From: an uncultured Caldilineaceae bacterium
GTDB taxonomy: Bacteria > Chloroflexota > Anaerolineae > Caldilineales > Caldilineaceae
Direction of reading: 5' to 3'
DNA length: 64,000 bases
Assembly (NCBI GenBank): GCA_951813625.1
Contig: CATOTS010000032.1
Span: forward strand, 1-64,000
The notes below the pieces were generated by a model that did no database searches, was not told the origin of the DNA, and saw nothing but the letters and a program-made list of their open reading frames with translations. Position numbers and translations under genes: made by a program. Numbering within the stretch: position 1 is the stretch's first letter; each line of letters opens with the position of its first letter. This document shows positions 12,617 to 48,706 of the stretch, one piece after another.

Positions 12617-13471
12617 ATGGAGACGCGGCCTGTGTCAGACGACATGTTCAACAAGCAGTGCGAACGAAAGCTCGCTCAGTACAAACGCAGAAATACGAAG
12701 GCTGTTACGAGGCGACTCAAACACGTGTGTGACATTCTCAGGCATGAGGATGACCACGTGGCGCAGACCAAGTTTGGCGGCTCCGTCCAGAAGGGCACCT
12801 ACGTGACGGGCCTCAGTGACGTCGACGTTCTCTTAATTGTGAACCAGTCTTCGCTGAAGAATCAATCTCCCTCGAAGGTGTTAGCGTACGTACGGGACAC
12901 TATCAAACGACATCTTTCCAATAATCCCGTGAGCGCGGGCAAGTTGGCAGTAACGGTAAGCTACGCAGACAAGACCGAGATCCAGATTCTGCCCGCCATA
13001 CGTACGAAGGACGGCTTTCGAATCGCCGAACCCGGAAGCAGCAGGTGGAGCAATGTGGCGCATCCCGAGCGTTTCGTCGCGAGGCTCGTCAAAGTCAACA
13101 ACGCAAGGGGCGGCAGGGTCGTACCCACAATCAAGCTTGCCAAGGCCATAGCCGACTGTTTCATCACCCGCCCCGGCAGGAAGATTTCGGGGTATCACAT
13201 GGAGGCCCTGGCAACCAGCGCGTTCAGGGACTATCAAGGCCCACTTGATCCGAAAGCCATGCTCAATCGCCTGTTCAGTTACGCGATGGAGGCGGTGACG
13301 AGGCCGATCCAGGATTCAACGGGGCAGTCAAGGCACGTGGACGGGTACCTCGGCCCAGCAGATTCACGAGCCCGCAAGCGGGTTTCAACGTATTTTGGAC
13401 AGATGCGGGGCAAGGTCAGATCCTGCAGGACGAAGGCGGAGTTCGCCGCGCTTTTTTGCGAAGGGAACTGA
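12617..13471 (+). CDS. CD-NTase-like (SMODS) nucleotidyltransferase, orphan
   Basis: 284 residues. FGGSVQKGTYVTGLSDVDVL (residues 53-71) is the G-S...D-x-D core of cGAS/DncV-like enzymes. TEIQILPAIR (about 120-129) is where OAS-like enzymes have their third carboxylate, here with Gln at the usual Asp position and Glu two residues earlier. IKLAKAIADC and SGYHMEALATSAF fit the helical C-terminal domain. Such enzymes make cyclic (oligo)nucleotide signals in CBASS. No effector, Cap2/Cap3 or other CBASS partner is adjacent. No good ribosome site precedes ATG 12617; ATG 12644 is an alternative. Confidence 0.75.
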   Translation: METRPVSDDMFNKQCERKLAQYKRRNTKAVTRRLKHVCDILRHEDDHVAQTKFGGSVQKGTYVTGLSDVDVLLIVNQSSLKNQSPSKVLAYVRDTIKRHLSNNPVSAGKLAVTVSYADKTEIQILPAIRTKDGFRIAEPGSSRWSNVAHPERFVARLVKVNNARGGRVVPTIKLAKAIADCFITRPGRKISGYHMEALATSAFRDYQGPLDPKAMLNRLFSYAMEAVTRPIQDSTGQSRHVDGYLGPADSRARKRVSTYFGQMRGKVRSCRTKAEFAALFCEGN

Positions 13472-21003: not shown

Positions 21004-23310
21004 TTATGACCTCGGAACTCCTTTCTCTTCCAAATAAAGGATGTCACAGCGAATCTCTAGCCGTTTACGTTCTCCGGCTTTAGGTACGAAAATCTCAGCG
21101 ATTTCAGGTGGGATTGGAATGAACGTGCGACTCCTTGTAAGGATAGTCGACGTAACCCTTGGTCCCCTTCCAGACAACGCTTCTACGAGTCCGGGGCAAA
21201 GGATATCGTAGTACAATCCAAAGCGCTTTGAGTGATGTTGAAATACAAAGATGACCTTCCGTCCACTCCAGACTATCTCCGTAGAGTGCGGCTGCAGGAA
21301 GAAATCTCCTTTCTCGCGCTGAACTCGGTCGCTAAGGGAGAGAAAGCAAGTGTATCCGTTTACAGGCACGTCGCTAGTGAGAATGCGTGCATTCGTTTCC
21401 TCCTCCCGACGGTCTATCCCTGGCCTGGGTTCAAAGGAGTCAGAGTCAAGCTCCTCACCATCGTCATCAGCTATCTTTCTGACAACTGACGAAAGAGGGG
21501 CTGTGCCCGAACTACTGACCTCAACAAATGATCGGTCAGTGTCGGTCAGTCTTCTGGTTGCCTCAGCCACCGTAAGCTTTCCAGCATGTAAGTCTTCGAG
21601 AACCTCCTCCAAGTCGGCCCTATCGTCGAGTTCATACTCGAACCACTCTCGGTTGGAATTAAGATGGCGAAGGAAAGCCTCGGCCCCTTCTCGTGTGCTG
21701 CTGGGCACGAGGTTGGCAACTCTCGGGAATACCGTTGATCGAACAAAATCCTTGACGAAAGCACCAAACGAATTGAAGTCATTGGCATAGAGTTCTAGTA
21801 ATGGAAAAATGTTGCTCGAAGCGGGGTCGAAGTAGATGACCACAGGTGTCTGGGTTTCAGTAACAAGAAGTGACAGACCACCGGATATCGACCCGAAACG
21901 TATCTCCACGCCGAGAAAGTAGTCCTCTTCTAGTATTTTGGTCAGCCGAGTTGCAAGTGCCGAATGGGCAAAGCTTAGACTTACCAACGATAACTCCTCT
22001 GTCACCTTGGGGCTGATGTCAACCTCCGTGATTCCCTTCATTCTTAGATAGTGAAGCTCGCAGTTGCGTCTGGGAGCGCGTTGGGAAAGTACTACAAGCG
22101 GTTCGTCCTCGCTGGCATGCGTCTGGATTACAGACTGGTCGCGTCCCCTGTAGTAACGAAGGCCACCCCGTTCGACTATCGATTCAAGTGCTTCAGGTTT
22201 TCCACTGGGGCGAGGTGTCACTTCAAGAGGACCACAAATCAGATATCGCTTTGTGGTGACGATCCATTGGAGGAAGCCATCGTTGGAGAAGGACTCGGCA
22301 TGCTCGGCAGCAATTGGAGAGATCAGGTTATCTAGAGCCGAGATGATTTGTTGCAGTAGTTGATTCGAATGAGTGTCTAGAGATTCGCGGCCTGCCGTAG
22401 GCTGCAGGAAAGGGAGATCAATGACACCGCCCCAGCGATATACAGACTGAACAGCAACCGCAGCGAGGCCGAAGCCTGACCGCAAGGTGCGTACTACGTT
22501 TCGACCCTGTACCAAAACGATTGAACCAGCCCTTCCGCTACCAACTGCGGATCTAACGTTTTCAAGAACGATTCGGAGTTCCCCAGAAGCCATGCCGAAG
22601 AGGTACAAATCACCGGAAAGTATACCGGCTAGTGAGATGTCGTCACGTCGCTTAGACCAACTGTGTCTTTCAGAAGGTAGTGCATCTCTAAGTGTGGCAC
22701 CACTGATCTTGTCGTCGTTGAAGAAAACTGGTACATCCACATACTCGACGAACTCTCGTAGGTATGTACGAGCATCCTGAACAGACAAGGCCTTGTCCGG
22801 AGCGAGTTGTGCTCGGACAATCGTGCCTGATTCGCCAGTTTTCGCGACTGGCGTGACCAAGATTGCTGCAACATCCGTCGACAAATCTGATTTCCGAACC
22901 GACGACAAGGTACGCCCATCAGCGACTGCCGATTCACTCTCAACGGTGAGTTTATCAGCTACTCCGAAGTTCGCCATTGCCCCGATTCCGAATGTGCCTA
23001 CGACACCCGCCGCCCGGGCGGCATCGGTATTCTTACCGCTTTTTCCGGCATACCAGAAGTTGGTTTCGATCTCCTCAGCAGTCATACCAATGCCATTATC
23101 GGAAACTATGATTTGGTCATCGTTGACAATTACGTTGATGGCAGGGTTAAACTTTTGGCCAAGCGATTCCCTCATTCGAATCGCGTCGAAAGCGTTCTGG
23201 GTGTTTTCCCTCAGTAACGCAAGAGGGGATTGGTAGATTTGATTGGCGAGTAACTCGAGAATCCGAGTGAACTCGACTCTAAACGGAATTTTTTTCTCGG
23301 TTGAAGTCAT
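21004..23310 (-). CDS. Hsp90-like (GHKL) ATPase of a two-gene unit
   Basis: 768 residues. The N-terminal GHKL ATPase shows LLRENTQNAFDAI (N box), VSDNGIGMTAEEI (G1) and VGTFGIGAMANFG (G2/lid), the HtpG order. The middle (about residues 200-560) is a long beta/alpha region with GRESLDTHSNQLLQQIISAL, as in Hsp90 middle domains; an acidic linker and a unique C-terminal domain follow. It is longer than bacterial HtpG and lacks the MEEVD-type end. ATG 23310 overlaps the phosphoesterase stop (ATGA), so the two are coupled. Likely a defence ATPase; no established name is known to me. Confidence 0.75.
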   Translation of the reverse strand: MTSTEKKIPFRVEFTRILELLANQIYQSPLALLRENTQNAFDAIRMRESLGQKFNPAINVIVNDDQIIVSDNGIGMTAEEIETNFWYAGKSGKNTDAARAAGVVGTFGIGAMANFGVADKLTVESESAVADGRTLSSVRKSDLSTDVAAILVTPVAKTGESGTIVRAQLAPDKALSVQDARTYLREFVEYVDVPVFFNDDKISGATLRDALPSERHSWSKRRDDISLAGILSGDLYLFGMASGELRIVLENVRSAVGSGRAGSIVLVQGRNVVRTLRSGFGLAAVAVQSVYRWGGVIDLPFLQPTAGRESLDTHSNQLLQQIISALDNLISPIAAEHAESFSNDGFLQWIVTTKRYLICGPLEVTPRPSGKPEALESIVERGGLRYYRGRDQSVIQTHASEDEPLVVLSQRAPRRNCELHYLRMKGITEVDISPKVTEELSLVSLSFAHSALATRLTKILEEDYFLGVEIRFGSISGGLSLLVTETQTPVVIYFDPASSNIFPLLELYANDFNSFGAFVKDFVRSTVFPRVANLVPSSTREGAEAFLRHLNSNREWFEYELDDRADLEEVLEDLHAGKLTVAEATRRLTDTDRSFVEVSSSGTAPLSSVVRKIADDDGEELDSDSFEPRPGIDRREEETNARILTSDVPVNGYTCFLSLSDRVQREKGDFFLQPHSTEIVWSGRKVIFVFQHHSKRFGLYYDILCPGLVEALSGRGPRVTSTILTRSRTFIPIPPEIAEIFVPKAGERKRLEIRCDILYLEEKGVPRS

Positions 23311-24728
23311 ACGATCGCCTTCCTAGCCTCTATGACCCCACACAGTTCTCTATAGAGGGGTTGATCTATTAATGTTGACATTGTGTGAAGCCGCTTTGAG
23401 GCTTCGTCAAAGCGATTGTCGTCGATGAGTAGGGAAATAATCTTGACAGCTTCATCTTGATTCTGAGGTGGATCCAGGAGGTTGAGCAGCTCTTCAATCC
23501 TATCTAGACCTTCCAATGCTTTGATCTCGATGTGACGCCTAACATGCGCGTAAGCAGTAGATGTGGCTGGAAGGAGTTCCAAAGCTCTTTCATGCTGGCC
23601 TTGTCTTGCTGCCGTCATTGCCTCATCAAGTCTGCGCGTTTTAGAAGGTCTTCTAGGGCGAGCCGGCGAATGGGGGAGAGGGAGAGTAATGGATGCGTTA
23701 CCGCCGAAATCATCGCGATATGACTTCGTGAATACGCCAGCGGGAGACATCGCTCGCACATGAATGGTTACGGTCTCATCGTCGGGATTGATCACAATGA
23801 TGTTGAATTGACGACGTTCGCCCATAGGGAGTCCTTTATCTCCTACCGCGAGAGAGCCCGCCCCTACTACAGCCATTGAATTCAGATTCGGCAAGCGTAG
23901 TTCATATGGTGCTGCATCAGCGTAATGGTGATGACCGTGTAGACCTAAACTAAATCCAAAATCGATTAGTCTGTGGACAACACGAGCGTCCATATAGTCA
24001 TGAGAACGTGGCCCGCCTGTAACCCCATGATGCCATACAGATATAGCCGTCGGGGCCTGCGAATCTTGAAGCAGCTTCTGAGACAAATTCAGTGCGTGGG
24101 GATCAATCTCTCCTGCATGGCAGAAGCAGTCATTCCCATGCCACGAGGCGAAGCCTACAACAACAAGACCAAGTGTCGGATATTCAACGTAAACAGTGTC
24201 GCGACCATGAGACAATGGGTCGACGCACAGACCTGTATAAAAGTTTGTTTGAAATTGCCGGAAATGTTCAAAACGCAAATCATACAAGTTGCTATCAGAA
24301 ATCTCGTATGCTTTGCACTCTTTCCAATTCCAACGAGTATGCGAGTTGGCCTCAAATGCTGTGACGCCTATATCGTCAGGACAATTCTTTAATGGGCTCA
24401 TTGCTCGTCGAGATCGGCCCCAGTGTACATCGTGGTTCCCGGGAACAATAATGACCTTAGACTTGTCCGATCCAACAAGATCGTCTGTCAACTGCTGCAA
24501 GAAAGCCGCCACCTCGACGTATTGAGAAGCAATCTCTGAGTCAGAGTTGGGATGGTCGATTGGCGTGCCCTGAACTAGATCACCGCTTACGACGATGAGG
24601 TCAGGATGAGGAATTCCTTCCTGCTCCCAGCGTTTAGCGTCGCTGAAAATCGCAGCGAGGAGTTCATCATTATCAAGCCGCGGTGCTGCAGTCCGATGCA
24701 GGTCTGATATGTGAAGCAATGTAGGCAT
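23307..24728 (-). CDS. Calcineurin-like metallophosphoesterase
   Basis: 473 residues from ATG 24728. All metal-binding motifs are present: LHISDLHR (D-x-H), IVVSGDLVQG (G-D), IIVPGNHDVHWGRS (G-N-H-D), VWHHGVTGG (H) and GLHGHHHYAD (G-H-x-H). After about residue 330 a linker leads into a helical, TPR-like C-terminal part (AMTAARQGQHERALELLPAT). Such domains hydrolyse phosphodiesters, often DNA, RNA or cyclic nucleotides. The ATGA overlap with the GHKL ATPase gene indicates a fixed two-gene system. Confidence 0.8.
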   Translation of the reverse strand: MPTLLHISDLHRTAAPRLDNDELLAAIFSDAKRWEQEGIPHPDLIVVSGDLVQGTPIDHPNSDSEIASQYVEVAAFLQQLTDDLVGSDKSKVIIVPGNHDVHWGRSRRAMSPLKNCPDDIGVTAFEANSHTRWNWKECKAYEISDSNLYDLRFEHFRQFQTNFYTGLCVDPLSHGRDTVYVEYPTLGLVVVGFASWHGNDCFCHAGEIDPHALNLSQKLLQDSQAPTAISVWHHGVTGGPRSHDYMDARVVHRLIDFGFSLGLHGHHHYADAAPYELRLPNLNSMAVVGAGSLAVGDKGLPMGERRQFNIIVINPDDETVTIHVRAMSPAGVFTKSYRDDFGGNASITLPLPHSPARPRRPSKTRRLDEAMTAARQGQHERALELLPATSTAYAHVRRHIEIKALEGLDRIEELLNLLDPPQNQDEAVKIISLLIDDNRFDEASKRLHTMSTLIDQPLYRELCGVIEARKAIV

Positions 24729-25049
24729 ATGATCATCCTGTGAAGCATAACTGCATCCTACGAGGCAGGCTCTCAAGATAAGCTTGACGCGATCGATGTC
24801 GAGGGTCAGGCAGACGACTATGTGTTATCTGCCCTCAAGGAGGCACTCTTTCTCCATTGGTGTTTGGAACCCCACCGATGACGGGGACGTTGGCGTCGTG
24901 CATTGCTCTTGTGAGATTGTAGGTGTTGAGGATAGGGAAGACAAAGCCGCGGCTGGGGCAGAACAGAGTCGTCAACTGTTCGTCGATCAGTCATAGATTG
25001 CCCCATTATGCCATCAGTTGAAGTATCTGTGCCTTGGTCCATTCAGCTA
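24729..25049. other. Gap between methylase and phosphoesterase genes
   Basis: About 320 bases with no supported gene. The genes on both sides are minus-strand. The gap is long enough for a separate promoter for the phosphoesterase/GHKL pair but I see no strong -35/-10 pair. Whether the two halves of the defence block are one transcript is open. Confidence 0.4.
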
Positions 25050-28000
25050 CTATTGGAACGCTTCGGACCATCCCCCGTGTTGTCCAATGAGTTCGTCGAT
25101 CTCGTCCATCAAGCGCTCAGTGCTAGCAAGGATGGCGAGAATCTGTTGGTAGTGTTCGATATCCTCATCGGAAAGAACTCGTCCCTTTCGGTATTTAAGC
25201 CATTTCTCCGCAGGGCGATAGCCCCCAACGGCGAATTCCCAGATTTCAGGCTTAACGCCTTCGAAGTGCTGATCGCGGTTGATGAACACTTGGCCTGGGG
25301 TTCCGTTGTTTGGCGGCGCATACCGCACCCTATTAACGCAGTTGTCTCCCCCCTTAGGAAAGGTTGGGGCGTCATCCACCTTCAGCTCCATCAAGTGCAG
25401 AGACGTTAGACGTTTACCAAGGAGCACAAGAGCGGCAAACAGAGTCTGGTTGCTTGTAAGCGGTACTCGCGGAAAGTCTGACTTTAGGAGATCCGCGTAA
25501 CGGTGGCGGTATTGCGGGCTATACAGCACAGCATAGATGTAGTTGAAAAGGTCGTCAGGCCCAAAGGACTCTTGCAGGTCTCCGGAGCCGTCAGAGATGA
25601 ATTCGATCCCCAGGGAAGAACCAAAGGCTTCAATGAACCCTTTATCGATGTTGGGCTCGCGGGCTAAGCCAAGATGTTTCTGCGGTTCGGGGGGATATGT
25701 GTAGAGGGGAAAGAGATAGGAGCCACCTTTGTTGCTCAGTGTTGTGCGAAAATCGGCGACACTTTTAGTCACAAATGCATGATTGAATATGCCCTCGGCA
25801 ACCTGACGTACTGAAATAAGGGCTTGATTCTCCCCAGCCAGCATGTGGCGCATGACACGCTCACGCCGATGAACTGCCACGTTGCGGTCGAACACGGTTA
25901 CGCGGAGATCGAAAGGACGATAGAGAATTGTCTCAATCCGCTCTCCCCAGGTTCCGTCAGCGAGTTCCCGCTTGGCCCTGTCGTATTGCCATTGGTTCTG
26001 CGAACACAGTCGCCAGATCTGGCGCGCTTCGTTCTCGGATGTCGTGAAGAGCAGACGTTCTACCTTTGACATAGCCTCTTTGCGTGTCCATGAAATGGCG
26101 AATTGGTCATGCGTGGTGACAATACCTGGTGCGGGATCGCCATTCGGCGAAAAGATCCTGGGAAGAGGCCAAGCCGCCTCATATTCTTCGATCAATGCCT
26201 CGTCGCGCGGTACAAATAAATGCTGGGGCGATCTCGGAGATATGCTGGAGCTACTGACAGTAGCCATTTCAACGTAGTTATCCGTTAACCATCCGTATTT
26301 TCCGCCCCCCGGGCCTACCTCGCGTTTGCCCCAAAGATCAGCGTGAAGTACCCGGGCAGGACCGTTGTGGTCAGTCCCCCTCAGGAATAAACCAATAGCT
26401 ACACCCTGCTGGATGTCGAATACATTTTCATCCTTGTCACCGGCAGGCGTCTGTTCCTTCTTCTTTGAGTTGCCGTGTAGATCCAGCAAGTGGATTTCGC
26501 TGAACTCCCGTAGGAGACTGAGACGCATTCCGCGAAATGTGGGGTTGTCCAGGTAGCTATGGTTGGAAATGAAGCCGAGCGTCCCGGTGCCTGTACGTGA
26601 AATCAGCGATTGAGCGAAGCGGATGAACTTTACATAGTCGTCACTGAGCCACTTCGCCTGAGCTGGCTTCTTCAGTTCTGGGAAATCCTTCTTATAGTCA
26701 TCGATCAAATCAGCGATCCATTGCCCCTTGTTGGCGGAGTGTCCTGAGTACGGGGGATTACCAATCACGACCGTAAACCGTTGTTGACCTTTGATCTGAT
26801 TGACCGCCCGTGCCTCGTGTGCAAGCGCTGGAATCGCGAAGTCCATCAACCCAGAGGTGTTTTGGGCTGGCTCCAAGGTGTTGGTGAGGTACACCTGCGC
26901 CCGCTCCTCGCTGCCAAATCGGTAGCCGGTCTCGTAGAGCTTTAGGCCAATCTTGAGGTGTGCAATGGCGTACGGTGCCATCAGAAGCTCATAGCCATGG
27001 AGCCGAGGGAGTAGGTGCTTAGGAACGTATTCGTTCCAAAGTGCTTCCACGTCGTGGTCGCGGCAACCCTGCGCCTTCCACTTGTCGACGAGTGTGTCGT
27101 GGATCAGATCGATGGCTTCAACCAGGAAGGTGCCGGTGCCCGTAGCCGGATCGAGGATTTGGACGAAATCCTGGTCCGGCGAGATCCCATCGGGAACCGA
27201 GAGGCTCTTGTGGCGCTTCGCCATCTCACGCCAACTGGTAACGTCCGCGAGACCATCGTCCAGCCCGAACTTCGTGCGCAGCACTTGGTCCACCGATCGG
27301 ACGATGTATGAAACCACGGGACGCGGTGTGTAGAAGACACCCCGCTCTACCTTCTTCTGCTTGTCGTACTCCGACAGGAAGCTCTCGTAGAAATGGATCA
27401 CCGGATCTTCACGGGGATTCTTGTCACCAAAGTCACGGATTACAGCATCCATGTTGGCGTGATCCAGGAGTTCAACGACCTCGGCAACCCCCAATTCGTC
27501 GAAGTCGATACCAATACTATGTCGCTGACCAGACACCTCCAAGAAGGCTGACATTAGCTCTCGCAGCAGTGGATTAGTGCGCATGTGGCGGGCCAAATCG
27601 CCGGCGGTACCCTGCTGTGGGTCCGTGATGCGCGCCGAGAGCAGGCCGTAGGCGATGGTCTGCGCGACCATGTCGGCAAAGCCGTCGCGGCCAAGACCAT
27701 GCATCAGCGTTTCACTGAACGCCTTCATGAGTAGAGTGATTCGACCACTCTCATTCTCAATATCAAGCGCACCTAGGATACGGGTACGGATCACCTTGGC
27801 CAGCTCCGCGAGACGAACGGAAAGCCGCTGAGCGGTGGTAATGGTTTCTCGGTGCTTCAAGGTGAACGCAGCACGCCACTGCTCGCGCCAAGCGTCGACG
27901 TCCTCCTCGTCAACCGGCCACGCCAGATCCTCTGTGAGTTCACGGGCAACTTGATCCAAGTGCAGCGCTGTGTCCCTGTCATCCCATGTGACTACCTTGA

Positions 28001-28442
28001 GGGTAGGCAGTTTGACGCTGCCGGCCGGCGCTGCGAAGTGCGCGAAACTGATCTGACGAGCATCCCCTTCACCGTAGTTGGAGATGAAAAGCAAGTCTTC
28101 CATATCCCAAGCGGGCCGCTCCGCGTTGTTGGCCGAGGCGCGTTTTTTGAGCGCCACCCGGCCCAGTATGCTGCGCAAGGCCACCACAGGGAGGCGCTTT
28201 GGCTCGAACTTGACAAAGAAAACGCCCCAAGGTTGATTCGCTACCAACGGACGCAGACGTCTGATCTCCTGAATCCTCGCGGCATTAACAGCGTCGATGC
28301 CAAGCTCTTCCGCGCTGTATTCGAAAGTCAACTCCTCGAAGTCATTGCTGACTATGGGCCAGTCCATCTCATCGCGCAGAAACGCGATCAACTGATCGAA
28401 GCGTCTGATAGTGGCGAGTTCAGTTCGAAAATTGGCCGTCAT
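25050..28442 (-). CDS. Type-ISP-like adenine methyltransferase with specificity domain
   Basis: 1130 residues. HFYESFLSEYDKQKKVERGV and FYTPRPVVSYIV precede the SAM motif ILDPATGTGTFLVEAI (about residue 420) and the catalytic VVIGNPPYSG (about 585), the order of gamma-class N6-adenine methylases. The ~250-residue N-terminal part and the C-terminal region (YRPFDLRVTVFDRNVAVHRR, LFPLYTYPP, FNYIYAVLYSPQYRHRYADL) match the type ISP/LlaBIII-like specificity half. The nuclease and helicase of those single-chain enzymes are missing here and are supplied by the upstream gene, with which it overlaps by ATGA. Confidence 0.8.
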   Translation of the reverse strand: MTANFRTELATIRRFDQLIAFLRDEMDWPIVSNDFEELTFEYSAEELGIDAVNAARIQEIRRLRPLVANQPWGVFFVKFEPKRLPVVALRSILGRVALKKRASANNAERPAWDMEDLLFISNYGEGDARQISFAHFAAPAGSVKLPTLKVVTWDDRDTALHLDQVARELTEDLAWPVDEEDVDAWREQWRAAFTLKHRETITTAQRLSVRLAELAKVIRTRILGALDIENESGRITLLMKAFSETLMHGLGRDGFADMVAQTIAYGLLSARITDPQQGTAGDLARHMRTNPLLRELMSAFLEVSGQRHSIGIDFDELGVAEVVELLDHANMDAVIRDFGDKNPREDPVIHFYESFLSEYDKQKKVERGVFYTPRPVVSYIVRSVDQVLRTKFGLDDGLADVTSWREMAKRHKSLSVPDGISPDQDFVQILDPATGTGTFLVEAIDLIHDTLVDKWKAQGCRDHDVEALWNEYVPKHLLPRLHGYELLMAPYAIAHLKIGLKLYETGYRFGSEERAQVYLTNTLEPAQNTSGLMDFAIPALAHEARAVNQIKGQQRFTVVIGNPPYSGHSANKGQWIADLIDDYKKDFPELKKPAQAKWLSDDYVKFIRFAQSLISRTGTGTLGFISNHSYLDNPTFRGMRLSLLREFSEIHLLDLHGNSKKKEQTPAGDKDENVFDIQQGVAIGLFLRGTDHNGPARVLHADLWGKREVGPGGGKYGWLTDNYVEMATVSSSSISPRSPQHLFVPRDEALIEEYEAAWPLPRIFSPNGDPAPGIVTTHDQFAISWTRKEAMSKVERLLFTTSENEARQIWRLCSQNQWQYDRAKRELADGTWGERIETILYRPFDLRVTVFDRNVAVHRRERVMRHMLAGENQALISVRQVAEGIFNHAFVTKSVADFRTTLSNKGGSYLFPLYTYPPEPQKHLGLAREPNIDKGFIEAFGSSLGIEFISDGSGDLQESFGPDDLFNYIYAVLYSPQYRHRYADLLKSDFPRVPLTSNQTLFAALVLLGKRLTSLHLMELKVDDAPTFPKGGDNCVNRVRYAPPNNGTPGQVFINRDQHFEGVKPEIWEFAVGGYRPAEKWLKYRKGRVLSDEDIEHYQQILAILASTERLMDEIDELIGQHGGWSEAFQ

Positions 28443-31400
28443 TCGTTAAGCTCCATCCAGCATTTGAGAGAAGGTTGCACCCCTATGGGGGCATCGACTC
28501 GCTTGAGGTAGGTGTTCTTGATGTGCGTCTCCACTTTGGCACGGATTCCGATGAGCAACTTCTCATCTGTAGTGCAATTGCGAGGCGTCTGGCGGTCGGA
28601 TCGGATGCTTGTGACTATCTCACCCGGTTCTTCGAGAATCACATTACGGTCAAAATCGTAGAGATACCACTTTGTTGACCCTGCCTCGTTGGTAAACTCA
28701 CCGGTTTCCGTGTCGAGGGCCGGAAGCGCGTAGCACAAGAAGACGCCCCGTACGCCGTCTACCACCCGTCTCCGTCCGCTGAAAGTGGAACCGGGCAAAC
28801 TTCTCAGACGGGTATCCAGTTCCGGATCAATCTGTAGCAAGGATTGGTATTCGAGATGCATCTCCTCGATTGCCGTGCGTGTACCCTCGTAGGCGTGGTT
28901 GAAGTCCCTAAGTGCGTCGAAATCATCGTCGGGAGTCAAAAGCTTCTTGCCTTCGATTCCGAGCGTCTTCGAGATGAGAAGGGTTTTCTGGGTTACCCTC
29001 GTATAGAGCGTGAGGATTGCGTTGAGCTCATCGGGAGGTAAGAAATTCCAGTAGCTTACCTTGCCGCGTGAAGTCGCTGCTTGGGGGTGTTGAGCTAGGA
29101 TCCGTTTCTCAATCTCCGGGTTCATTCGACGGTCGACGCGTCCGATACGCTGCATAAGCCGCACTGGGTTCCAGTGGATGTCGTAGTTGATGAGCCGCGA
29201 GGCATCCTGCAGGTTGAGTCCCTCTGAGAGCACGTCCGTGGAGATGAGAACCCTGATCTCCTGTAGGCCGGCATCCTCAAGTTCAGCCGAGGAACTACCG
29301 TTGTAGAAGGGTGAAAAACGCTTGATTACCTGCGCCCGATTGCCTTTAGATGCGCTATCCAATTGACCCACGCCTTCGATTTCGGCCTCGTCGAGTTGGC
29401 GTTTCAGGTACCGAGCCGTGTCCGCGAACTCCGTGAACACGAGGACTTTCTGGCTAGAGAGGTCCTTGGTCTTCAGTAGTCGGACTAGCTTGAGAAGTTT
29501 GTCGTCGTGCCGGGGCTTGAACTTCCGGGATTCGTTGAGAAACTGCACGATCTGGTCGAGATCTAGAAATGACTCGGATATCATCTCTTCGATTTCGTAC
29601 TCGTCTCGGGCAAGCTTTTCTACTGCCTCGATCATCTCCACCGGCACGATGTCCTCTTCCTCGACTTCGTCGTCCTCCTCGTTCCAGAGAGCGAACTGGC
29701 GCTGCATGGTGTAGCCGAGAATCTCTGCGTTTTGCGTTTTCCACCGGCTAAGACGCCCTTTCTCGCTCTCGGTTTCACTGTGAACTTCAATGAAGGCCAG
29801 GAGTTTCTTGAGGAGCCGGTTGCATGATAGCTCGAAGGCCGTTACGGAGCTTTCGAACCGCTTGAGAAAATTCGTCCGAATTAGACCCACAACTTGTTGC
29901 TGTCGATTCTGTTCGAAAGGGTCAATATCTTGGTCTGACCCTTTGTACCAGTAGAGTGGGTAATACATGGGGAGCGTGAAGAGTGGATTCTCCCGCGTGA
30001 AGGCTTTTTCGAACAGGTCTAGTAGGCGTCCGTAAGTCTTGCGTATCGAATATGCGGCTACTTGCGGAGCCTTACGTTCTGGAAATGCCGTAGACTGCCC
30101 GGTCTCGCGTATCTGGCTTTCACGTGCATAGCCACGGCTGCGCTGCACCACGAGTTGACGGAATATTGCGTCGGCGGAGAGGATGTCCTGCGCTTCGGCC
30201 CACTGGTCGGAGACATCTGTCACAGTGTGGCCCACGCGCTGGCGAAAGACCCGCTCCATCTGATTGACGTGAGACCTAAGACTGTTAACGCCTAACGTTC
30301 GGGCGAAGTAAGCTTCGTTCCGACGCGTGAACAGTTCAACCATGTGGCGGAAGTCGCTCAGCCGATTGTTGATCGGTGTCGCCGTAAGCATGAAAACTGT
30401 CTTGGGTCGCACGGCGTGATCTAGGAGATCGTACAGGCGATAGTAGCGAGAAGGCTCCCTCCCGTTGTCATTTCCTCGCCTACCAGGGTTCCTAAAATGG
30501 TGTGCTTCGTCTATGATCACGGCGTCGGCCAACTCGGCTATGCGCTGGAATCGCTCTGGGAAGTCTCCCTTCCTGTGAAGATCGGTGTGGCTGAAGACAG
30601 CCAAGTTGCTGAAGTCGGTTGCCCCACCTCCGATGTGCGGCAGCCACTCTCGCAGGTGGGGTTCCCACACGCCCTCTTTCGTGGCTTTAGGTGCGAACAG
30701 CACGACGCGTTTGCCTTCGTGGAGGATCAGACGCTCGATAAGCATCAAGCCGACGAAGGTCTTGCCGAGCCCCACCCCATCACAGAGAAACGCTCCTCCG
30801 TGCTGCCGAGCAATTTTCATGAGAGCCCAATAGGCTTCTTGTTGGTAACGGTCAAGTTGGTGGAAAATCCTCGACTTGGTTTCGTCCCACTCGGTGGCAG
30901 TCAGTTCATGGCCGCGGAAGAACTCCTGTAGCGCTTTCGCATAAACTTCGAATGGCGAGTAAAGGCGGGTGTGCCGTTCAATCGTCTCAACTAATATGTC
31001 GCTTACTTCTTTGGCCTCATTCCAATGCTCTTCGAACCAATCTTGGAGTTGTGCCACCTCACGAGCGCTTTGAATTTGCACGTTGAGCTCGATGTTCTCT
31101 GTGAGTCCAGGTCTCGTGAAATTGCTGGATCCCACCAATGCCTGCGAACCAACGACTTCGAGTTTGGCATGCGTTATGTAAGTTTTCGCGTGGAACTTGC
31201 CCTTGTCGTACACACGGCATTCGATTTGACCGCTGCGTAGTCCTTCGAGAACTGCCGGTACCCCATGCAAGAAGGGATTGTCTTGCTTGTTAGACTCGAT
31301 GCTCTGATCAAGGGTTTCAACCGACCGGGCGCGTACGGAGTCGAGAAGCGCTTTGCGCGTCCTCTGGTTTGTTTCCGCACCCATAAGGACGCGAATTTTT

Positions 31401-31576
31401 TCCAGTCCTTGCCATTTCCCATCCAAGGCAAGGAGCGCGCCGATTTCGAAAAACCCTGTCGCTACATCGAAGGCCCTTGCAATGTTGGACCATTCTTCCA
31501 GGTAACGTAGCCCTGTCCAGCCAGCTATGCTATTGTCGACGACGAAGAGTTCTCGACCTGTAGGGTCGGTGTTCAT
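28439..31576 (-). CDS. PLD-nuclease / SNF2-type helicase fusion
   Basis: 1045 residues. Residues 1-190 form a phospholipase-D-like nuclease: FHAKTYITHAKLEVVGS followed by SSNFTRPGLTEN (H-x-K...S-N). An SF2 helicase follows: CDGVGLGKTFVGLMLIE (Walker A), VIIDEAHHFRN (DEAH), LTATPINNRLSDF (motif III), TDVLSEGLNLQDA and LMQRIGRVDRR (motifs V-VI). The long insert between the lobes is acidic and helical. The fusion resembles the nuclease-translocase half of a restriction complex. Its ATG is 1 base after the preceding 88-residue gene and its stop overlaps the methylase start. Confidence 0.85.
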   Translation of the reverse strand: MNTDPTGRELFVVDNSIAGWTGLRYLEEWSNIARAFDVATGFFEIGALLALDGKWQGLEKIRVLMGAETNQRTRKALLDSVRARSVETLDQSIESNKQDNPFLHGVPAVLEGLRSGQIECRVYDKGKFHAKTYITHAKLEVVGSQALVGSSNFTRPGLTENIELNVQIQSAREVAQLQDWFEEHWNEAKEVSDILVETIERHTRLYSPFEVYAKALQEFFRGHELTATEWDETKSRIFHQLDRYQQEAYWALMKIARQHGGAFLCDGVGLGKTFVGLMLIERLILHEGKRVVLFAPKATKEGVWEPHLREWLPHIGGGATDFSNLAVFSHTDLHRKGDFPERFQRIAELADAVIIDEAHHFRNPGRRGNDNGREPSRYYRLYDLLDHAVRPKTVFMLTATPINNRLSDFRHMVELFTRRNEAYFARTLGVNSLRSHVNQMERVFRQRVGHTVTDVSDQWAEAQDILSADAIFRQLVVQRSRGYARESQIRETGQSTAFPERKAPQVAAYSIRKTYGRLLDLFEKAFTRENPLFTLPMYYPLYWYKGSDQDIDPFEQNRQQQVVGLIRTNFLKRFESSVTAFELSCNRLLKKLLAFIEVHSETESEKGRLSRWKTQNAEILGYTMQRQFALWNEEDDEVEEEDIVPVEMIEAVEKLARDEYEIEEMISESFLDLDQIVQFLNESRKFKPRHDDKLLKLVRLLKTKDLSSQKVLVFTEFADTARYLKRQLDEAEIEGVGQLDSASKGNRAQVIKRFSPFYNGSSSAELEDAGLQEIRVLISTDVLSEGLNLQDASRLINYDIHWNPVRLMQRIGRVDRRMNPEIEKRILAQHPQAATSRGKVSYWNFLPPDELNAILTLYTRVTQKTLLISKTLGIEGKKLLTPDDDFDALRDFNHAYEGTRTAIEEMHLEYQSLLQIDPELDTRLRSLPGSTFSGRRRVVDGVRGVFLCYALPALDTETGEFTNEAGSTKWYLYDFDRNVILEEPGEIVTSIRSDRQTPRNCTTDEKLLIGIRAKVETHIKNTYLKRVDAPIGVQPSLKCWMELNE

Positions 31577-40930: not shown

Positions 40931-43210
40931 CTATGCCCATCGTTGCTTCACATATCCGACGAGATCGGATCCTTCGAGGATACGGGTCGAGTTGTTCACT
41001 CGGGCGAAGAAGACTTTGCCACCCTTGGAGACCTTGGCATAGATCGGTTCGGGTGATGGAGTTACGCGCACGAATGCGACCTGAAGGCCGTTGACAGCCT
41101 CTAGATGAATCTTTGCCATCGTCGAAGCGAGTGGTCCGAGTGAACGCCCGATTGCCGTGGTGAGCGAGTTTACGTAGCGGTCCCCGTCCATGTCCTTTTT
41201 GTCCAGGTCTGGTTGGATCCCAAGGATTTCGCCGTCATCCGCGACACCAATTGCGAGGGTGCCACCATTGGAGTTCAGGAAGCCCGCGACGGTCTTTAGA
41301 ATGGACTCCGTGATGACTCTCTCTGGGATGTCCGGCCTGTAGCTGAAGTACGCAGATGATTTGAACTCGACCCACCCAGTTTCCATCTGAGCTAAGAGAT
41401 CTTCGGCGGACCACTCGGGGAGGCGTGCTGAAAACGGCGGTTCCTCCTCGGGAAGCTGGCCCATGCGAAGTTTGTCGAAGGCCGCTCGAACTACCTTGGC
41501 AATGAGCAGCCGCCGTTGTTGAAGGAAGTCCCGATAGTCCATCTGCTCCCAGCCTTCGGGCAAGGCGTGCCAAAACCGCGCTTGTTTTTGCTGCTGCTGC
41601 GTAAGCTCGTTAAAGAGAGGAGGGAAATACTCGCTGGGTGGGGCGTCGCCGATTTTCGCGTTGTCAGGCCATTCGACGAAGGCGTAATTGGCTATCTGAT
41701 TCCGGTGTCCGGTGCGGTCGATACCGATGCGTGTCAGGTATGCTTTGGGAAACAGATGGTGGCGTTCGACAGCAGATCGAGGAGCGTGGGTCGATGGATC
41801 CAGCAACTCACCCAAATGCAACGGCGAGAACAGGGGGTGGGCATTGAGAAGTACAAGGCTAGCGGAGTACGCGAACACAGTCGGCCCGTAGGCCGATGAC
41901 GTTTCCAGAGAGCTAGGTAGTTGAATGTTCCAAAAGTCTTCCGTAAGAGCCGTGTCGATGATCCCGTTCAAAGTTGCTGTGAAGTCCTCACCTGACTTCG
42001 CCTCTGCAATACGGCGGAGGTCCTGTTCGACCCTGCTCTCGAAGTTCCCTGTGTATCGACCGGTGAGGGATGTCATGAAGAACCATTGAGCGATCGTTTC
42101 GCGAAGGGTCTTGCGGTCGAGATCAAAGTCCCGATGTCCGATCAGGTATATCAGGTAGGAGAACATAAGGTTGTTCTCCGAACTGATCATCGTTCGGCTA
42201 CGGTAGCCAGCCCGGCGCACAGCCTTTAGAAACTCGTGCCAATTGGTCAGTGACAGGGTCTCCGCCTGAGCCTTCTGTAGCGCGGCGAACTGTTTCTCAC
42301 GAATTACAGCCGAGATCTCACCGGTCTCCATGTCTTTGCCGCGGAGAACCTGATAGACGTACCGAAGTCGGCCTCGGCGAAGGGCAAGGCCCGCGACAAC
42401 GCGCAGCATCTGGTCCGCCGACGGGTCGATGAATGGGTTGGCCGGAGATGGGGTCGACTGTGGGATCCTAGCGTCGCGAGCGAATGCTTCCAACTGCTTG
42501 CGGCCCTCCTCCCACCAAACGGACATCAGAGTAAGAATGAAGTCGGCCTGGCTGAGTTGGACCCCCTCGCTATTGATGCGTACGAATACGTCCGCGACCT
42601 GTTCCTCGTCTACATTGGATCCCAGTTCCAAGACTTTGAATGGGTAGAAACGGAGGTTGTAGAGCCGGCTGATCGCCTCCTCAAGATCTTCTCGCTGATG
42701 CTCCGTCAGTTCACCCTTGCTTGCCTCTAGGCGCTTGAGAAACTCTCGTACCTTTTTGATCTGGCTTCCGCCGTCCCACAGAATCGAAATGTCACGTATG
42801 AATTCCGGGTTCTTTGCCACTGCGGCATCGGCAACTTCAAATCTGCCGTCCCGGGGCCGAAACGCGATACGAATCCGTGAGGAGGTGTAGTCGTCGCGGA
42901 GCACTTCTTTTCCCGTGAGTACGGCGTAGAGGCTCGTCAGGCGCTGCTGGCCGTCCACGATCATTAAGCGCGGTGCAGCTTCATGGGCATGCGTGCCGAT
43001 TCGGCGGGCATCTACTTCGACACCAGTTGCCCAAAAGAGCAGATGGCCTACTGGGAAGCCACGGTACATCGAGTCGAATAGGTCTCGGACTTTGGCTGGC
43101 TTCCAGACGAAGGGCCGCTGGATGTCCGGTAGAGCGATCTCGCCTCTGTCGATTTCACCAAGCAGGGTGGACAGGTCGTAGGAACTGTCCTTAAAGACTG
43201 TGATGGCCAT
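40931..43210 (-). CDS. GmrSD-like DUF262/DUF1524 restriction protein fused to an AlbA_2 domain
   Basis: 759 residues from ATG 43210. The N-terminal DUF262 domain: LPDIQRPFVWKPAKVRDLFD, RLMIVDGQQRLTSLYAVLTG (D-G-Q-Q-R, nucleotide-driven), FVRINSEGVQLSQADFILTL. Around residue 495 DUF1524 has the HNH motif VERHHLFPKAYLTRIG. From about residue 600 there is an AlbA_2/Schlafen-type domain: WVEFKSSAYFSYRPDIPERV, GFLNSNGGTLAIGVADDGEI. GmrSD enzymes cut DNA with modified bases; the extra C-terminal domain is unusual for them. It is divergent from the XRE/ImmA genes. Confidence 0.85.
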   Translation of the reverse strand: MAITVFKDSSYDLSTLLGEIDRGEIALPDIQRPFVWKPAKVRDLFDSMYRGFPVGHLLFWATGVEVDARRIGTHAHEAAPRLMIVDGQQRLTSLYAVLTGKEVLRDDYTSSRIRIAFRPRDGRFEVADAAVAKNPEFIRDISILWDGGSQIKKVREFLKRLEASKGELTEHQREDLEEAISRLYNLRFYPFKVLELGSNVDEEQVADVFVRINSEGVQLSQADFILTLMSVWWEEGRKQLEAFARDARIPQSTPSPANPFIDPSADQMLRVVAGLALRRGRLRYVYQVLRGKDMETGEISAVIREKQFAALQKAQAETLSLTNWHEFLKAVRRAGYRSRTMISSENNLMFSYLIYLIGHRDFDLDRKTLRETIAQWFFMTSLTGRYTGNFESRVEQDLRRIAEAKSGEDFTATLNGIIDTALTEDFWNIQLPSSLETSSAYGPTVFAYSASLVLLNAHPLFSPLHLGELLDPSTHAPRSAVERHHLFPKAYLTRIGIDRTGHRNQIANYAFVEWPDNAKIGDAPPSEYFPPLFNELTQQQQKQARFWHALPEGWEQMDYRDFLQQRRLLIAKVVRAAFDKLRMGQLPEEEPPFSARLPEWSAEDLLAQMETGWVEFKSSAYFSYRPDIPERVITESILKTVAGFLNSNGGTLAIGVADDGEILGIQPDLDKKDMDGDRYVNSLTTAIGRSLGPLASTMAKIHLEAVNGLQVAFVRVTPSPEPIYAKVSKGGKVFFARVNNSTRILEGSDLVGYVKQRWA

Positions 43211-43606
43211 GTGGATTCGGGCGATGGTGTCCAGTGTTTGCAACCCAGGGGCGGGGGGGACTCCGCAAGTATACAGGCTGCTTCGGTTGATTACAACTTC
43301 CTTCCCATTAACGCAGTTCTCCTCGCCTCCAGGCGAACACGGGAACTCGCCCTAAAAGTGCCGCAGGAGGGCTTCCTTTCCGACGCTCCGGTCGCTGGTA
43401 GTAATGCAACGATGAAGAAATGTTATGCTCATGTATCCCCTTGCGTTTATCGCTATTAGGTCTACGGCGTTGACACGTCCTAGACTACAGAAAAGCCTAG
43501 TGACGGTAGATCACCGGGGAGCATGTGTGTCTCAACTAGCGTCCTTCGAATTCTTCTTGATTGAATGAAGGCTTAGGCAATCCGAATATCCATTCTCGTC
43601 AACACT

Positions 43607-43706: not shown

Positions 43707-44063
43707 ATGCCGGAACGCTTCGGAGATGCCCTTAGAAGAAGCCGGCACGATGCCGGCAAGACTCTCGGGGATGTCGCGAAGCTGTTGGGCGTCTCTGTGG
43801 TTTACGTATCCGATGTGGAGCGCGGGAACCGCAGACCGTTCAACAACGATCGCATCCTCAAAGTCGCGCGGTTTGTCGAGACAGATCCAGCCCCTCTGAT
43901 CACCGCGGCGAATGTCGAGCGAGGTGTCATTGAGTACGACATCTCTAAAGGCAAGCCACTTGCGGCCGCCGTGGTAGGAGACCTCGTCAGTGGCCTTGCC
44001 CGCGGCGGCGTCACCGACGATCAGCTCAAGAAGATCAGGGCAATCTTGGAAGATTCCGATTAG
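43707..44063 (+). CDS. XRE-family regulator, ImmR-like
   Basis: 118 residues, ATG 43707 after AGGAGAGAAAAGGT. Helix-turn-helix near the start: RFGDALRRSRHDAGKTLGDV then AKLLGVSVVYVSDVERGNRR. The C-terminal half (SKGKPLAAAVVGDLVSGLAR) is helical and may mediate dimerisation or contact with the peptidase. It is 13 bases ahead of the ImmA/IrrE gene. In ImmR/ImmA pairs the regulator is cleaved on DNA damage or invasion to release its targets. Here it may control its own promoter and that of the adjacent ubiquitin-like operon. Confidence 0.8.
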   Translation: MPERFGDALRRSRHDAGKTLGDVAKLLGVSVVYVSDVERGNRRPFNNDRILKVARFVETDPAPLITAANVERGVIEYDISKGKPLAAAVVGDLVSGLARGGVTDDQLKKIRAILEDSD

Positions 44064-44076
44064 AAAATCAGTGACG

Positions 44077-44709
44077 ATGCCTAGAAGACTTTCAGGAATC
44101 CGCGCCGACCGCGGCTACAGCTATCGGGGGCTTGAACGCTGCGCCGCAGATGTTCGCGAGCAGCTTAGGCTCCCTCCGACTGTTGCCATCAATGCGATGA
44201 TGCTATTCGATAGACTCGACATCACGGCACAGGACGGGACTGGCCAGGACATTCCCATTCATGGCTATGTGATTGAGCTCGAAGACTTGGAAGGGTTCAC
44301 GAAGTACGATAGAGACCGCCAGATTATCGAGATTCTGGCGTCGGCCCAGACGTACGAATGGTTGGAACAGGATCACCCGCGTAGTCGTTACTTCCTAGCG
44401 CACGAGTTGGGACACTGCCTGCTGCACACGGACCAGCTCGTGCGTCTGGCACAAATGCCGATGGCGCAACGGGCGGGACTCCATCGAAACGGACAGATGG
44501 CTGCACACGAGGTTTATCGCGACACCGAGTGGCAGGCCAACGCGTTTGCCAGCGCTCTTCTTATGCCCGCCAGAGGCCTGCTGGCGCTTGAGAAGAGGCA
44601 TAGGGGCGGGCTCTGTCCGATCAAAATCGCGGCGCACTTCCGCGTATCAGTCGTAGCCGCGAGTTACCGGCTCGATCTATACAACAAACGGAAGCAACAG
44701 CTTTTCTAG
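44077..44709 (+). CDS. ImmA/IrrE-type metallopeptidase
   Basis: 210 residues from ATG 44077. FLAHELGHCLLH (about residue 105) is the HEXXH zinc site, and DTEWQANAFASALLMPARGL provides the downstream Glu and the E-x2-A-N-x-F-A-x2-L-L-M-P signature of the family. The C terminus (AAHFRVSVVAASYRLDLYNK) is the usual small helical domain. It is expected to cleave the XRE repressor encoded immediately upstream. Confidence 0.85.
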   Translation: MPRRLSGIRADRGYSYRGLERCAADVREQLRLPPTVAINAMMLFDRLDITAQDGTGQDIPIHGYVIELEDLEGFTKYDRDRQIIEILASAQTYEWLEQDHPRSRYFLAHELGHCLLHTDQLVRLAQMPMAQRAGLHRNGQMAAHEVYRDTEWQANAFASALLMPARGLLALEKRHRGGLCPIKIAAHFRVSVVAASYRLDLYNKRKQQLF

Positions 44710-44965: not shown

Positions 44966-45433
44966 ATGATTGAGATTTTTCTTCACCAGCGATCCAAGGC
45001 GATAGAGTTCGTCAAGATAGAACCAACCAAGAAGGTCGAGGACTTCGGCACCGAATGTATCGGAGAAGGAGCATTTGTTTGGGTTGAGGGCGTAGATGAG
45101 GCGCTTGATGCCGCGAAAACGCTTGCAGAAGCAGGGGTGTTTGAACGGTGCCACGTTCACGTCTCGTTCTGCAAGAATGTTATGGTCAAAGTTCGTTATG
45201 CCGGTGGTGTCATCGAGGATTCATTCTCGCCGGCCACTACTGGCGGAGCGATCCTGAAGTGGGCTGTGAGCCCCGAAGGCTTCAAGCTGACTGATAGCGA
45301 AAGTGCCAAACATCTGCTCTCGGTCTGCGAGACGGAAACCGAGCTTGACCAAGCGGAGCACATCGGATTTTTTGCGGACGATGATTGCTCAATATGCCTT
45401 GACCTCGTTCCCAAGGAACGATTCGCGGGATAA
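44966..45433 (+). CDS. Ubiquitin-like protein (BilA-like), first gene of conjugation operon
   Basis: 155 residues, ATG 44966 after AAGGAGC. Two beta-grasp-sized segments: residues 1-72 (MIEIFLHQRSKAIEFVKIEP ... VHVSFC) and 72-155 (KNVMVKVRYAGGVIEDSFSP, then GFKLTDSESAKHLLSV). The layout recalls ISG15/BilA proteins with two ubiquitin-like domains. The C terminus is VPKERFAG, with one Gly rather than Gly-Gly. Assignment rests on position before E2-like, JAB and E1-like genes and on size. It would be the modifier attached to target proteins. Confidence 0.65.
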   Translation: MIEIFLHQRSKAIEFVKIEPTKKVEDFGTECIGEGAFVWVEGVDEALDAAKTLAEAGVFERCHVHVSFCKNVMVKVRYAGGVIEDSFSPATTGGAILKWAVSPEGFKLTDSESAKHLLSVCETETELDQAEHIGFFADDDCSICLDLVPKERFAG

Positions 45434-45442
45434 GGGGCAATT

Positions 45443-45919
45443 GTGAACTCAATGTCGCCGGATGAACGGGTGTTTCATGATCATATATCGGGTGCTCGGT
45501 TTCAAAATGGTGTTGAGCGAGGTAGGTGGCGACTCGTCGGCGATATCGAATGGCCCATTGTGCTGCTCGCTGTGTCTGCGGGGTCAAGGGACAACGCCCC
45601 GGAGGAGTTTTTCCTACGCTTTGACCTAACCGGATATCCCGCGTCAGCTCCAACAGCGATGCCATGGAATCCCAAGAGGGGAACCGTGCTGGATGCGGAC
45701 AAAAGACCCAAAGGCGACCGGGTGGGCCACGTGTTTCGTAGCGACTGGGAGGAGGGGAGAGCCCTTTACGCACCCTTTGATCGGGTGGCATTGGATCGTT
45801 ACCACCCTGACTGGCGAAAGCAATATCCTCGCCAAGCGTGGAATGCTGAAAGAGATCTTGCATGGGTCCTACAAACCTTGCATCAGATGCTAAATGACGA
45901 TGATTATACGGGGATTTAG
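45443..45919 (+). CDS. E2/UBC-fold-like protein without any cysteine
   Basis: 158 residues from GTG 45443 (AAGGGGC upstream). FFLRFDLTGYPASAPTAMPW resembles the Y-P-x-x-P-P turn of E2 enzymes, and HVFRSDWEEGRALYAPFDRV, then AERDLAWVLQTLHQMLND, fits the active-site loop and last helix. At the place of the catalytic Cys the sequence is GRALYAPFDR, and the whole protein contains no Cys. It is therefore an E2-like scaffold or non-canonical carrier rather than a thioester-forming E2. Start of the JAB gene overlaps its end by 26 bases. Confidence 0.65.
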   Translation: MNSMSPDERVFHDHISGARFQNGVERGRWRLVGDIEWPIVLLAVSAGSRDNAPEEFFLRFDLTGYPASAPTAMPWNPKRGTVLDADKRPKGDRVGHVFRSDWEEGRALYAPFDRVALDRYHPDWRKQYPRQAWNAERDLAWVLQTLHQMLNDDDYTGI

Positions 45920-46433
45920 ATCGTTTCTTGATTGGTGTCGCTGGCTGTGGCCAAGTCGAGCCTACATCGAAATTGATCTCGAGTTGTGGCTACAGATGAT
46001 TGAGGAACTCGGTCGCAGAAGTCTTGGCGGGCGTCGTGAAACGGGCGTCTTTTTGCTTGCTTCTATCCTAGAGAGCCCACGTCATGTGGTTAAGCCAGTC
46101 TATTTCGATGATCTCGACCCTGAGTGTTTGGTTGGCAACATTCATATTCGCTCCTTCGGTTTCTCAAAACTCTGGGAGCTTTGTGAAGAGGAAAATCTTT
46201 GCGTCATCGCGGACATTCATACGCACCCTGGCTCTTCGGTCGACCAAAGCCTCACAGACCGGGAGAACCCCATGATCGCGCGCGAGGGACATTTCGCACT
46301 CATCGTGCCTTACTTCGGAACACGTTCAGTCCAAGCCCGGGAGGTTGGGGTTCACGAGTATCGTGGAGACCGTGGATGGGCATCATGGTTTGGCCCTAAG
46401 GCGGAACGTGTTCTCCGGATAAGGAGCTATTAA
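45894..46433 (+). CDS. JAB/MPN (JAMM) deubiquitinase-like metallopeptidase
   Basis: 179 residues. The JAMM zinc site is complete: Glu in GRRETGVFLL (about residue 49), ADIHTHPGSSVDQSLTDREN with His109, His111, Ser and Asp122. The ~20-residue N-terminal Trp-rich helix (FRSFLDWCRWLWPSRAYIEI) may be a membrane or protein contact. It would trim the ubiquitin-like precursor or remove it from targets. It overlaps the E2-like gene and its stop shares bases with the E1 start (TAATG). Confidence 0.8.
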   Translation: MTMIIRGFRSFLDWCRWLWPSRAYIEIDLELWLQMIEELGRRSLGGRRETGVFLLASILESPRHVVKPVYFDDLDPECLVGNIHIRSFGFSKLWELCEEENLCVIADIHTHPGSSVDQSLTDRENPMIAREGHFALIVPYFGTRSVQAREVGVHEYRGDRGWASWFGPKAERVLRIRSY

Positions 46434-48472: not shown

Positions 48473-48706
48473 ATGGCAGAGTCTGGCGCTGTGGAGCCTG
48501 GTGGAAGCTCAGAAGAGATTCTGGCCAACATTATCGAATCCCTTAGACAAAATGAGGCAACCGACATCTCCTTACTGGAGATAATATCGAAGCACATAGT
48601 TACCTTGTCGCCGGCAGAAGACGCCATTGATGCGGCTGTGAAGGACATCGAAACGGTTGCAAATCAGAGAGGGGAGCAAGTTGACCAAACCATCCGTCAC
48701 GATTGA
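48473..48706 (+). CDS. Small acidic protein paired with an SMC-like ATPase
   Basis: 77 residues, ATG 48473 after GAGGTGA. Helical and acidic (SSEEILANIIESLRQNEATD, DAIDAAVKDIETVANQRGEQ), no cysteines. It overlaps the ATPase start by about 26 bases, so the two are translated together. Small middle genes before SMC-like ATPases are common in defence loci; the role here, perhaps regulator of the ATPase, is inference. Confidence 0.65.
   Translation: MAESGAVEPGGSSEEILANIIESLRQNEATDISLLEIISKHIVTLSPAEDAIDAAVKDIETVANQRGEQVDQTIRHD

Follow-up and report, generated by a model that had tools for sequence, protein, structure and literature searches.

The subject of this analysis is a pair of overlapping genes on the reverse strand of a 64,000-nucleotide stretch of DNA (the window; positions 1 to 64,000 of contig CATOTS010000032.1) from an uncultured Caldilineaceae bacterium. 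The first gene (24728..23307; 473 residues from its ATG, with a second in-frame start, TTG, upstream at 24776) encodes a calcineurin-like metallophosphoesterase (MPE), the predicted effector of the pair, and the second (23310..21004; 768 residues) an Hsp90-family ATPase, its predicted sensor and regulator. Both genes lie where a preliminary description of this DNA had put them, and the coordinates of the open reading frames (ORFs) confirm the four-base ATGA overlap of stop and start codons (23307..23310) by which it had joined them.

The MPE had been described as a full calcineurin-like phosphoesterase with a helical tail, and both parts of this description hold. It matches PF00149 (Metallophos) at 58.3 bits (E 1.9e-15; gathering cut-off 21.5), and the complete set of metal ligands (D9, H11, D50, N98, H99, D100, H233, H234, H266 and H268) is invariant in all 75 full-length MPE rows aligned; in this alignment and in that of 88 ATPases used below the window gene occurs twice, as itself and as locus L085, and L086 is the gene of L130. 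By these residues the binuclear metal site is intact. In an AlphaFold2 model built from 63 sequences (mean pLDDT 92.8), the closest fold to residues 1-356, the part covered by the VIA fold list, is that of Bacillus subtilis YydB (Z 27.4, rmsd 3.4, 298 aligned), followed by Rv0805 (Z 22.2), SMPDL3A (21.7) and GpdQ (21.4). Several of these are nucleotide or phosphodiester hydrolases, and the modelled fold is of the nucleotide-phosphodiesterase type. The YydB entry models that protein with another, YydD, whose relation to Hsp90, unlike that of the present ATPase, is not established; no functional paper on YydB-YydD was found in the literature searched. The MPE tail (residues 363-473; 23310..23642) is modelled as seven helices at residues 363-472 and may be a docking or regulatory part; it is far more variable than the core, with a mean pairwise identity of 0.20 for residues 326-473 vs 0.39.

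The second protein is, as had been claimed, a GHKL ATPase with Hsp90-type motifs. It matches PF13589 (HATPase_c_3) at 32.9 bits (cut-off 25), and its N-terminal Bergerat ATP-binding domain (residues 1-210; 22681..23310) matches the N-domains of Hsp90, TRAP1 and HtpG by sequence (TRAP1 N-domain profile, 1e-18). The Bergerat-fold ATP-binding motifs (E..N box, DxGxG, G2 loop and GT) align with those of HtpG, and E35, N39, D71, G75, G105, G108, G110, T163 and R308 are kept in 88 of 88 rows. Neither gene is a chance ORF, since the catalytic and motif residues are kept across all rows of both alignments. R308 (22387-22389) lies in a PTAGRE sequence that aligns with the SRE motif of HtpG, and so occupies the position of the middle-domain arginine that is catalytic in Hsp90. 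The model of the ATPase matches the Hsp90/TRAP1/HtpG fold in Foldseek (E 7.7e-23) and, over residues 1-556, the Hsp90 architecture in VIA-align (Z 23.9-24.3). The superposition has an rmsd of 4.8 over 315 residues of the N-terminal and middle part and of 7-11 over longer alignments, perhaps from differently set domains in the model. The protein as modelled has the Hsp90 architecture of N-terminal, middle and C-terminal (N-M-C) domains, the C-terminal Hsp90-like (putative dimerisation) region being aligned with pLDDT below 50 at 549-565. What had been called unique C-terminal domains are thus mostly the Hsp90 middle and C-terminal-like domains (residues 211-556; 21643..22680); the last 200 or so residues (557-768; 21007..21642) do fall outside the Hsp90 match, are beta-rich in the model from about residue 630, and are conserved, with an identity of 0.43 for residues 626-768.

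With HtpG, TRAP1 and Hsp90 the ATPase thus has in common the ATP-binding motifs, the middle-domain arginine and the N-M-C architecture, but it reaches neither the HtpG equivalog of NCBIfam (69.6 bits vs a cut-off of 371) nor PRK14083 (102.8 vs 455), and it differs from these chaperones in its separate tree group, its extra C-terminal part, its near-obligate MPE partner and its sporadic distribution. The family is discrete and easily recognised: a 7-row profile gives 641 bits or more for members at the genome loci (the best 80 of 125), while other Hsp90-like proteins reach at most 86 bits with a 75-row family profile; a distant member, in locus L088, scores 265 bits with a 3-row profile. In the tree, the family and the Hsp90-like rows fall on opposite sides of one branch (support 77/94), with a long-branch warning and an unbalanced Hsp90 sample, as the 21 Hsp90-like rows came from earlier searches with the family itself. 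A different Hsp90-like protein (locus L217, 2989-4965, forward strand) has a PTASRE sequence and no adjoining MPE, and is followed by two small genes which we take to be a PIN-type toxin and a DUF433-like partner; it is possibly another Hsp90-like conflict module.

The association of the two genes is close. Loci were collected by a profile scan of genome contigs with the ATPase, and in 79 of the best 80 of 125 the gene directly upstream, in the same orientation, encodes an MPE of this family or part of one (a remnant in L147); in the exception, L135, the contig has only 81 bases ahead of the ATPase. The MPE profile is matched in one piece at more than 300 bits in 75 of 88 rows, the remaining 13 comprising five cut by contig ends, L088 with a different MPE, and seven that are split or reduced. 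Among the 75, the junction is ATGA in 42; 8 others have GTGA or TTGA and a further 10 have TAATG/TGATG, overlapping junctions being the commonest. Distances within the two families are correlated (r = 0.909, 68 loci), a value matched in none of 2000 permutations, and each of 50 carrier genomes examined has a single copy of the pair. No partner of another kind was seen among the loci found; orphan MPEs would have been missed, because the loci were located through the ATPase. Neither is there a sign of a third component: when 756 neighbours from 82 loci were grouped by single linkage, no family was present in more than 6 of the loci. Scans for promoters and terminators gave results close to chance, and repeats around the pair showed nothing diagnostic. 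The coupling proposed in the preliminary description is well founded, given the upstream MPE in these loci, the recurrent overlap and the correlated distances, and the two proteins almost certainly form one functional unit.

A distant variant of the pair lies in locus L192 (7193-11252, forward strand), with an ATPase about 25% identical to that of the window and an MPE of 586 residues, which shows that pairing with an MPE reaches beyond the core ATPase family. The gene upstream of this variant is presumably smpB-like; no tmRNA gene was found beside it.

The distribution of the pair is sparse and repeatedly crosses phyla. Among 60 relatives of the genome from which the window comes there is no full-length match, the matches there being Hsp90-like proteins at 21-45 bits. 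In 400 genomes of the phylum the ATPase family occurs in four, the window's own included (G000, G160, G165 and the distant G221), and the MPE family in G000, G160 and G165, with a weak match in G103; G221 has another MPE, of 586 residues, immediately upstream of its distant ATPase. Phylum labels mapped onto a tree of 75 ATPases require 28 changes (minimum 14; shuffled mean 38.3): being below the shuffled mean but above the minimum, this value implies some clustering together with much crossing of phyla. The rows nearest to the window pair (64-68% identity) are from Actinomycetota, Chloroflexota, Gemmatimonadota and Pseudomonadota bins; single labels of this kind may be wrong, since most loci come from metagenome bins. 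Mobile carriage is seen directly on conjugative plasmids of P. aeruginosa and Rhizobium, in records labelling the genes merely "metallophosphoesterase" and "ATP-binding protein" (the annotation of Rhizobium sp. 007 shows the MPE in fragments, yet its frame is intact at L003:12523-13995), and in a Mu-like prophage, where the pair (L023, 8502-12340) stands between phage genes of the opposite strand, with a Mu-like transposase, a transposition protein, Gam and terminase as neighbours. A DNA-level search for the Erwinia pair in 5,426 E. coli genomes gave no match, and tRNA genes, found in 6 of 57 scanned loci, indicated no consistent integration site.

Among the same 756 ORFs around the pair, the families that recur most are mainly subunits of Type I restriction-modification (R-M) systems and further DNA methylases; one group of ABC transporters is also among them. 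Profiles for five types of R-M gene found matches in 20 of the 86 loci of the pair, which span 1.50 Mb and include a duplicate of L130 (L193) and the distant variant (L192), vs 1 of 38 control regions spanning 0.76 Mb (p = 0.0025, Fisher's one-sided test). These profiles were built from neighbours of the pair, so that the comparison is biased towards the case set; for Type I genes alone the counts are 8 of 86 vs 0 of 38 (p = 0.048). All 20 Type I R-M genes are on the strand of the pair, and each of the ten run in PADLOC matched Type I models. Some gaps are short: 6 bases to hsdM in L122, and 16 bases after a gene overlapping hsdR in L141. For defence genes in general, 72 PADLOC models were matched near the pair vs 36 elsewhere on the same contigs (125 of 207 ORFs in each set, 20 loci, PADLOC at 1e-30), a roughly twofold difference in model counts, which are not protein counts because the models are redundant. 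These matched controls are a fairer test than a first, unmatched set, which gave 143 vs 30 models (120 ORFs taken from 250 eligible neighbours, and 120 from 286 control ORFs of 18 regions of one phylum). The preliminary description had looked to statistics of this kind to place the pair within defence islands: the association is there for R-M genes, and for defence models at large only at about twofold.

The window itself is a defence island. Directly upstream of the pair, on the same strand and as previously described, is an operon (25050..31576) for a PLD-SNF2 helicase (31576..28439) and a Type ISP restriction-methylase (28442..25050; Type_ISP_C, 255 bits). The window also holds BilABCD, a CD-NTase, a GmrSD-Schlafen fusion and a Lamassu LmuB-like ATPase. 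The BilABCD operon (44966-47851, forward strand) is complete, with PADLOC matches from BilA to BilD at E values down to 2.9e-151, and an M78-family peptidase gene lies just upstream of it at 43990-44709. The CD-NTase-like SMODS protein (12617-13471, forward strand; PADLOC Cyclase, 4.6e-92) has no recognised CBASS effector among the neighbours tested. A 770-residue protein (40931-43243, reverse strand) fuses a GmrSD N-terminal domain (DUF262) to Schlafen AlbA_2, an unusual combination, and an SMC-like ATPase (48657-51140, forward strand; PADLOC LmuB, 1.9e-27) is a Lamassu-like candidate.

A pair that is sporadic, mobile and linked to defence genes is likely to act in defence, and probably, with rather less assurance, it is an uncatalogued, self-contained anti-phage (or anti-mobile-element) module in which the Hsp90-family ATPase controls a phosphodiesterase effector. 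Whether the labour is divided in just this way, with the ATPase as regulator and the MPE as effector, is a matter on which belief and doubt are about evenly balanced. The earlier proposal of a defence unit has thereby gained indirect support, from the sparse distribution, transfer between phyla, plasmid and prophage carriage, R-M linkage and setting in a defence island. Abortive infection, which the preliminary description named as a sensible design for such a pair, may be the mode of action, with a toxic MPE controlled by the ATPase. Several observations weigh against a defence module. The MPE frame is interrupted or reduced beside an intact ATPase in eight loci (L103, which is split although it is among the 75 one-piece rows, L104, L125, L126, L127, L131, L147 and L166), so that the ATPase may sometimes be active alone; a costly enzyme may truly have been inactivated in these loci, or the assemblies may be in error. 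Joint inheritance can give co-variation of two proteins that do not touch. The R-M comparison carries the bias towards its case set already described, general defence enrichment relative to matched regions is modest, and at many of the loci no neighbour is a recognised defence gene.

The R-M linkage suggests another possibility, that the pair is an accessory or guard, monitoring or assisting a neighbouring Type I or Type ISP system and firing when that system is inhibited, and so a dependent component rather than an independent system. PrrC beside EcoprrI is a precedent for firing upon inhibition of a restriction system; the pair stands beside same-strand Type I genes in 8 loci of several phyla, some with short gaps, and in the window it follows the Type ISP operon. 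Set against this, 66 of 86 loci lack all five of the R-M gene types searched, so that R-M is not required by the pair, and the types that do occur as neighbours differ from locus to locus; a guard role as the general explanation is unlikely. It is also rather improbable that the pair is a toxin-antitoxin-like addiction module, with the MPE as toxin, the Hsp90-like ATPase as neutralising chaperone, and phage defence secondary if present at all. Tight coupling and carriage on plasmids and a prophage would fit this, as would the eight interrupted MPE genes beside intact ATPases, as expected for a costly enzyme, but 768 residues with full ATPase machinery and conserved catalytic residues exceed what is usual for an antitoxin, and a search through the ATPase could not have detected orphan MPEs. 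Least probable is a role outside defence, in stress or signalling, in which an Hsp90-type chaperone would fold its dedicated phosphodiesterase and the latter would control a cyclic nucleotide or phospholipid of the host: the likeness of the MPE fold to the class III cNMP phosphodiesterase Rv0805 and to GpdQ, and the general enrichment of only about twofold, are compatible with it, but presence in about 1% of genomes of the phylum and none of the 60 relatives at full length, transfer across phyla, plasmid and prophage carriage and the lack of a conserved metabolic neighbour all argue otherwise.

If the pair is a self-contained defence module, has it been catalogued? No named system consisting of just these two proteins was known to the preliminary description, and none was found in PADLOC 2.0.0, NCBIfam 20.0 (June 2026) or the literature searched, which was largely without subscription papers. 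Neither protein exceeds the curated cut-off of any NCBIfam 20.0 defence model or has a strong PADLOC 2.0.0 match, and no housekeeping or conserved metabolic context was seen among the pair loci; either a catalogued match or a mainly housekeeping setting would have spoken against the proposal. The closest validated systems are DS-8 and DS-9 from DefensePredictor (NF053861 and NF053862), which, in the accessible part of the paper describing them (PMC13092281), have an MPE effector with an SMPDL3A-like fold, as here; DS-8 joins its MPE to an NTPase and DS-9 is a two-gene unit, both traits recalling the present pair. The MPE catalytic residues of both, and the NTPase domain of DS-8, are reported there to be essential. 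However, DS-8 is a single protein with its MPE fused to a NACHT NTPase (the present MPE scores 23.5 bits vs a cut-off of 790), and the partner in DS-9 is a HAD phosphatase rather than an Hsp90-like protein (41.9 bits vs 420); an Hsp90-type ATPase is in neither, and only the MPE domain is common to them and the present pair. A DefensePredictor HATPase named in the figure 6 legend of the same paper was also considered as a match and set aside: as far as its section 8 text goes, no MPE-HATPase pair is described (PMC13092281).

GHKL ATPases have been proposed as regulators of effectors, in R-M or defence neighbourhoods, in VcSduA (a Shedu protein with a GHKL domain, proposed to control the nuclease; PMC12137116), MzaB and the paraMORCs (PMC12137116, PMC8011034, as far as the accessible text of these papers goes). 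In these a nuclease is fused or adjacent, where the present pair has a phosphoesterase; MzaB models gave only weak matches (14 bits), and the Shedu nuclease domain DUF4263 had no Pfam match at E 0.1 in either protein. VcSduA and GrwAB were rejected as catalogued equivalents, being, by the available portions of their descriptions, a Shedu nuclease and a GmrSD-like system. Among eukaryotes, PP5 is a calcineurin-superfamily phosphoesterase with helical repeats that acts with Hsp90 (accessible parts of PMC11259706 and PMC4655416). The TPR domain of PP5 binds the EEVD tail of Hsp90, whereas 0 of the 75 ATPases of the present family have EEVD-like ends and the helical part of the present MPE is C-terminal; because that tail is absent from all 75, the likeness is an analogy of design only.

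How, then, might the defence module work? The first gene would supply the effector, a phosphodiesterase with a binuclear metal site and a helical tail, and the second a dedicated Hsp90-family ATPase, predicted by comparison with Hsp90 to be an ATP-driven dimeric clamp, with its extra C-terminal part. Before infection the ATPase would bind the phosphodiesterase, perhaps through the MPE tail, and hold it quiet. Infection, or interference with a neighbouring restriction system, would alter the ATP-dependent clamp and so release or activate the phosphodiesterase, which might then stop phage growth by destroying a phosphodiester, whether nucleic acid, a nucleotide or a cyclic nucleotide signal. This division between a sensor or restraint and an effector is proposed because of the precedents of DS-8, DS-9, VcSduA and NTPase-centred conflict systems; for the last, calcineurin phosphodiesterases have been predicted as effectors (PMC7159879 and PMC8195603, in the parts available).

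The novelty would lie in an NTPase-regulated effector module, a kind already known, with a class of NTPase that the searches did not find in such a role; with it comes a candidate phosphoesterase effector to stand alongside those of DS-8 and DS-9. A bolder and more tentative idea is that of a prokaryotic "immune Hsp90", an N-M-C clamp with one phosphodiesterase as its client and effector, serving as an ATP-driven anti-phage trigger that in certain genomes would guard Type I or Type ISP restriction. Eukaryotic immune receptors dependent on Hsp90 exist, and if this idea is true, the bacterial clamp would parallel both these and Hsp90-PP5 in design, not descent. If the pair does act as a defence switch, bacterial immune effectors would be regulated by Hsp90-family ATPases as well as by NTPases of the NACHT/STAND, AAA and SMC types, and the pair would offer a single-client system in which to ask how an enzyme is turned on or off by the Hsp90 cycle.

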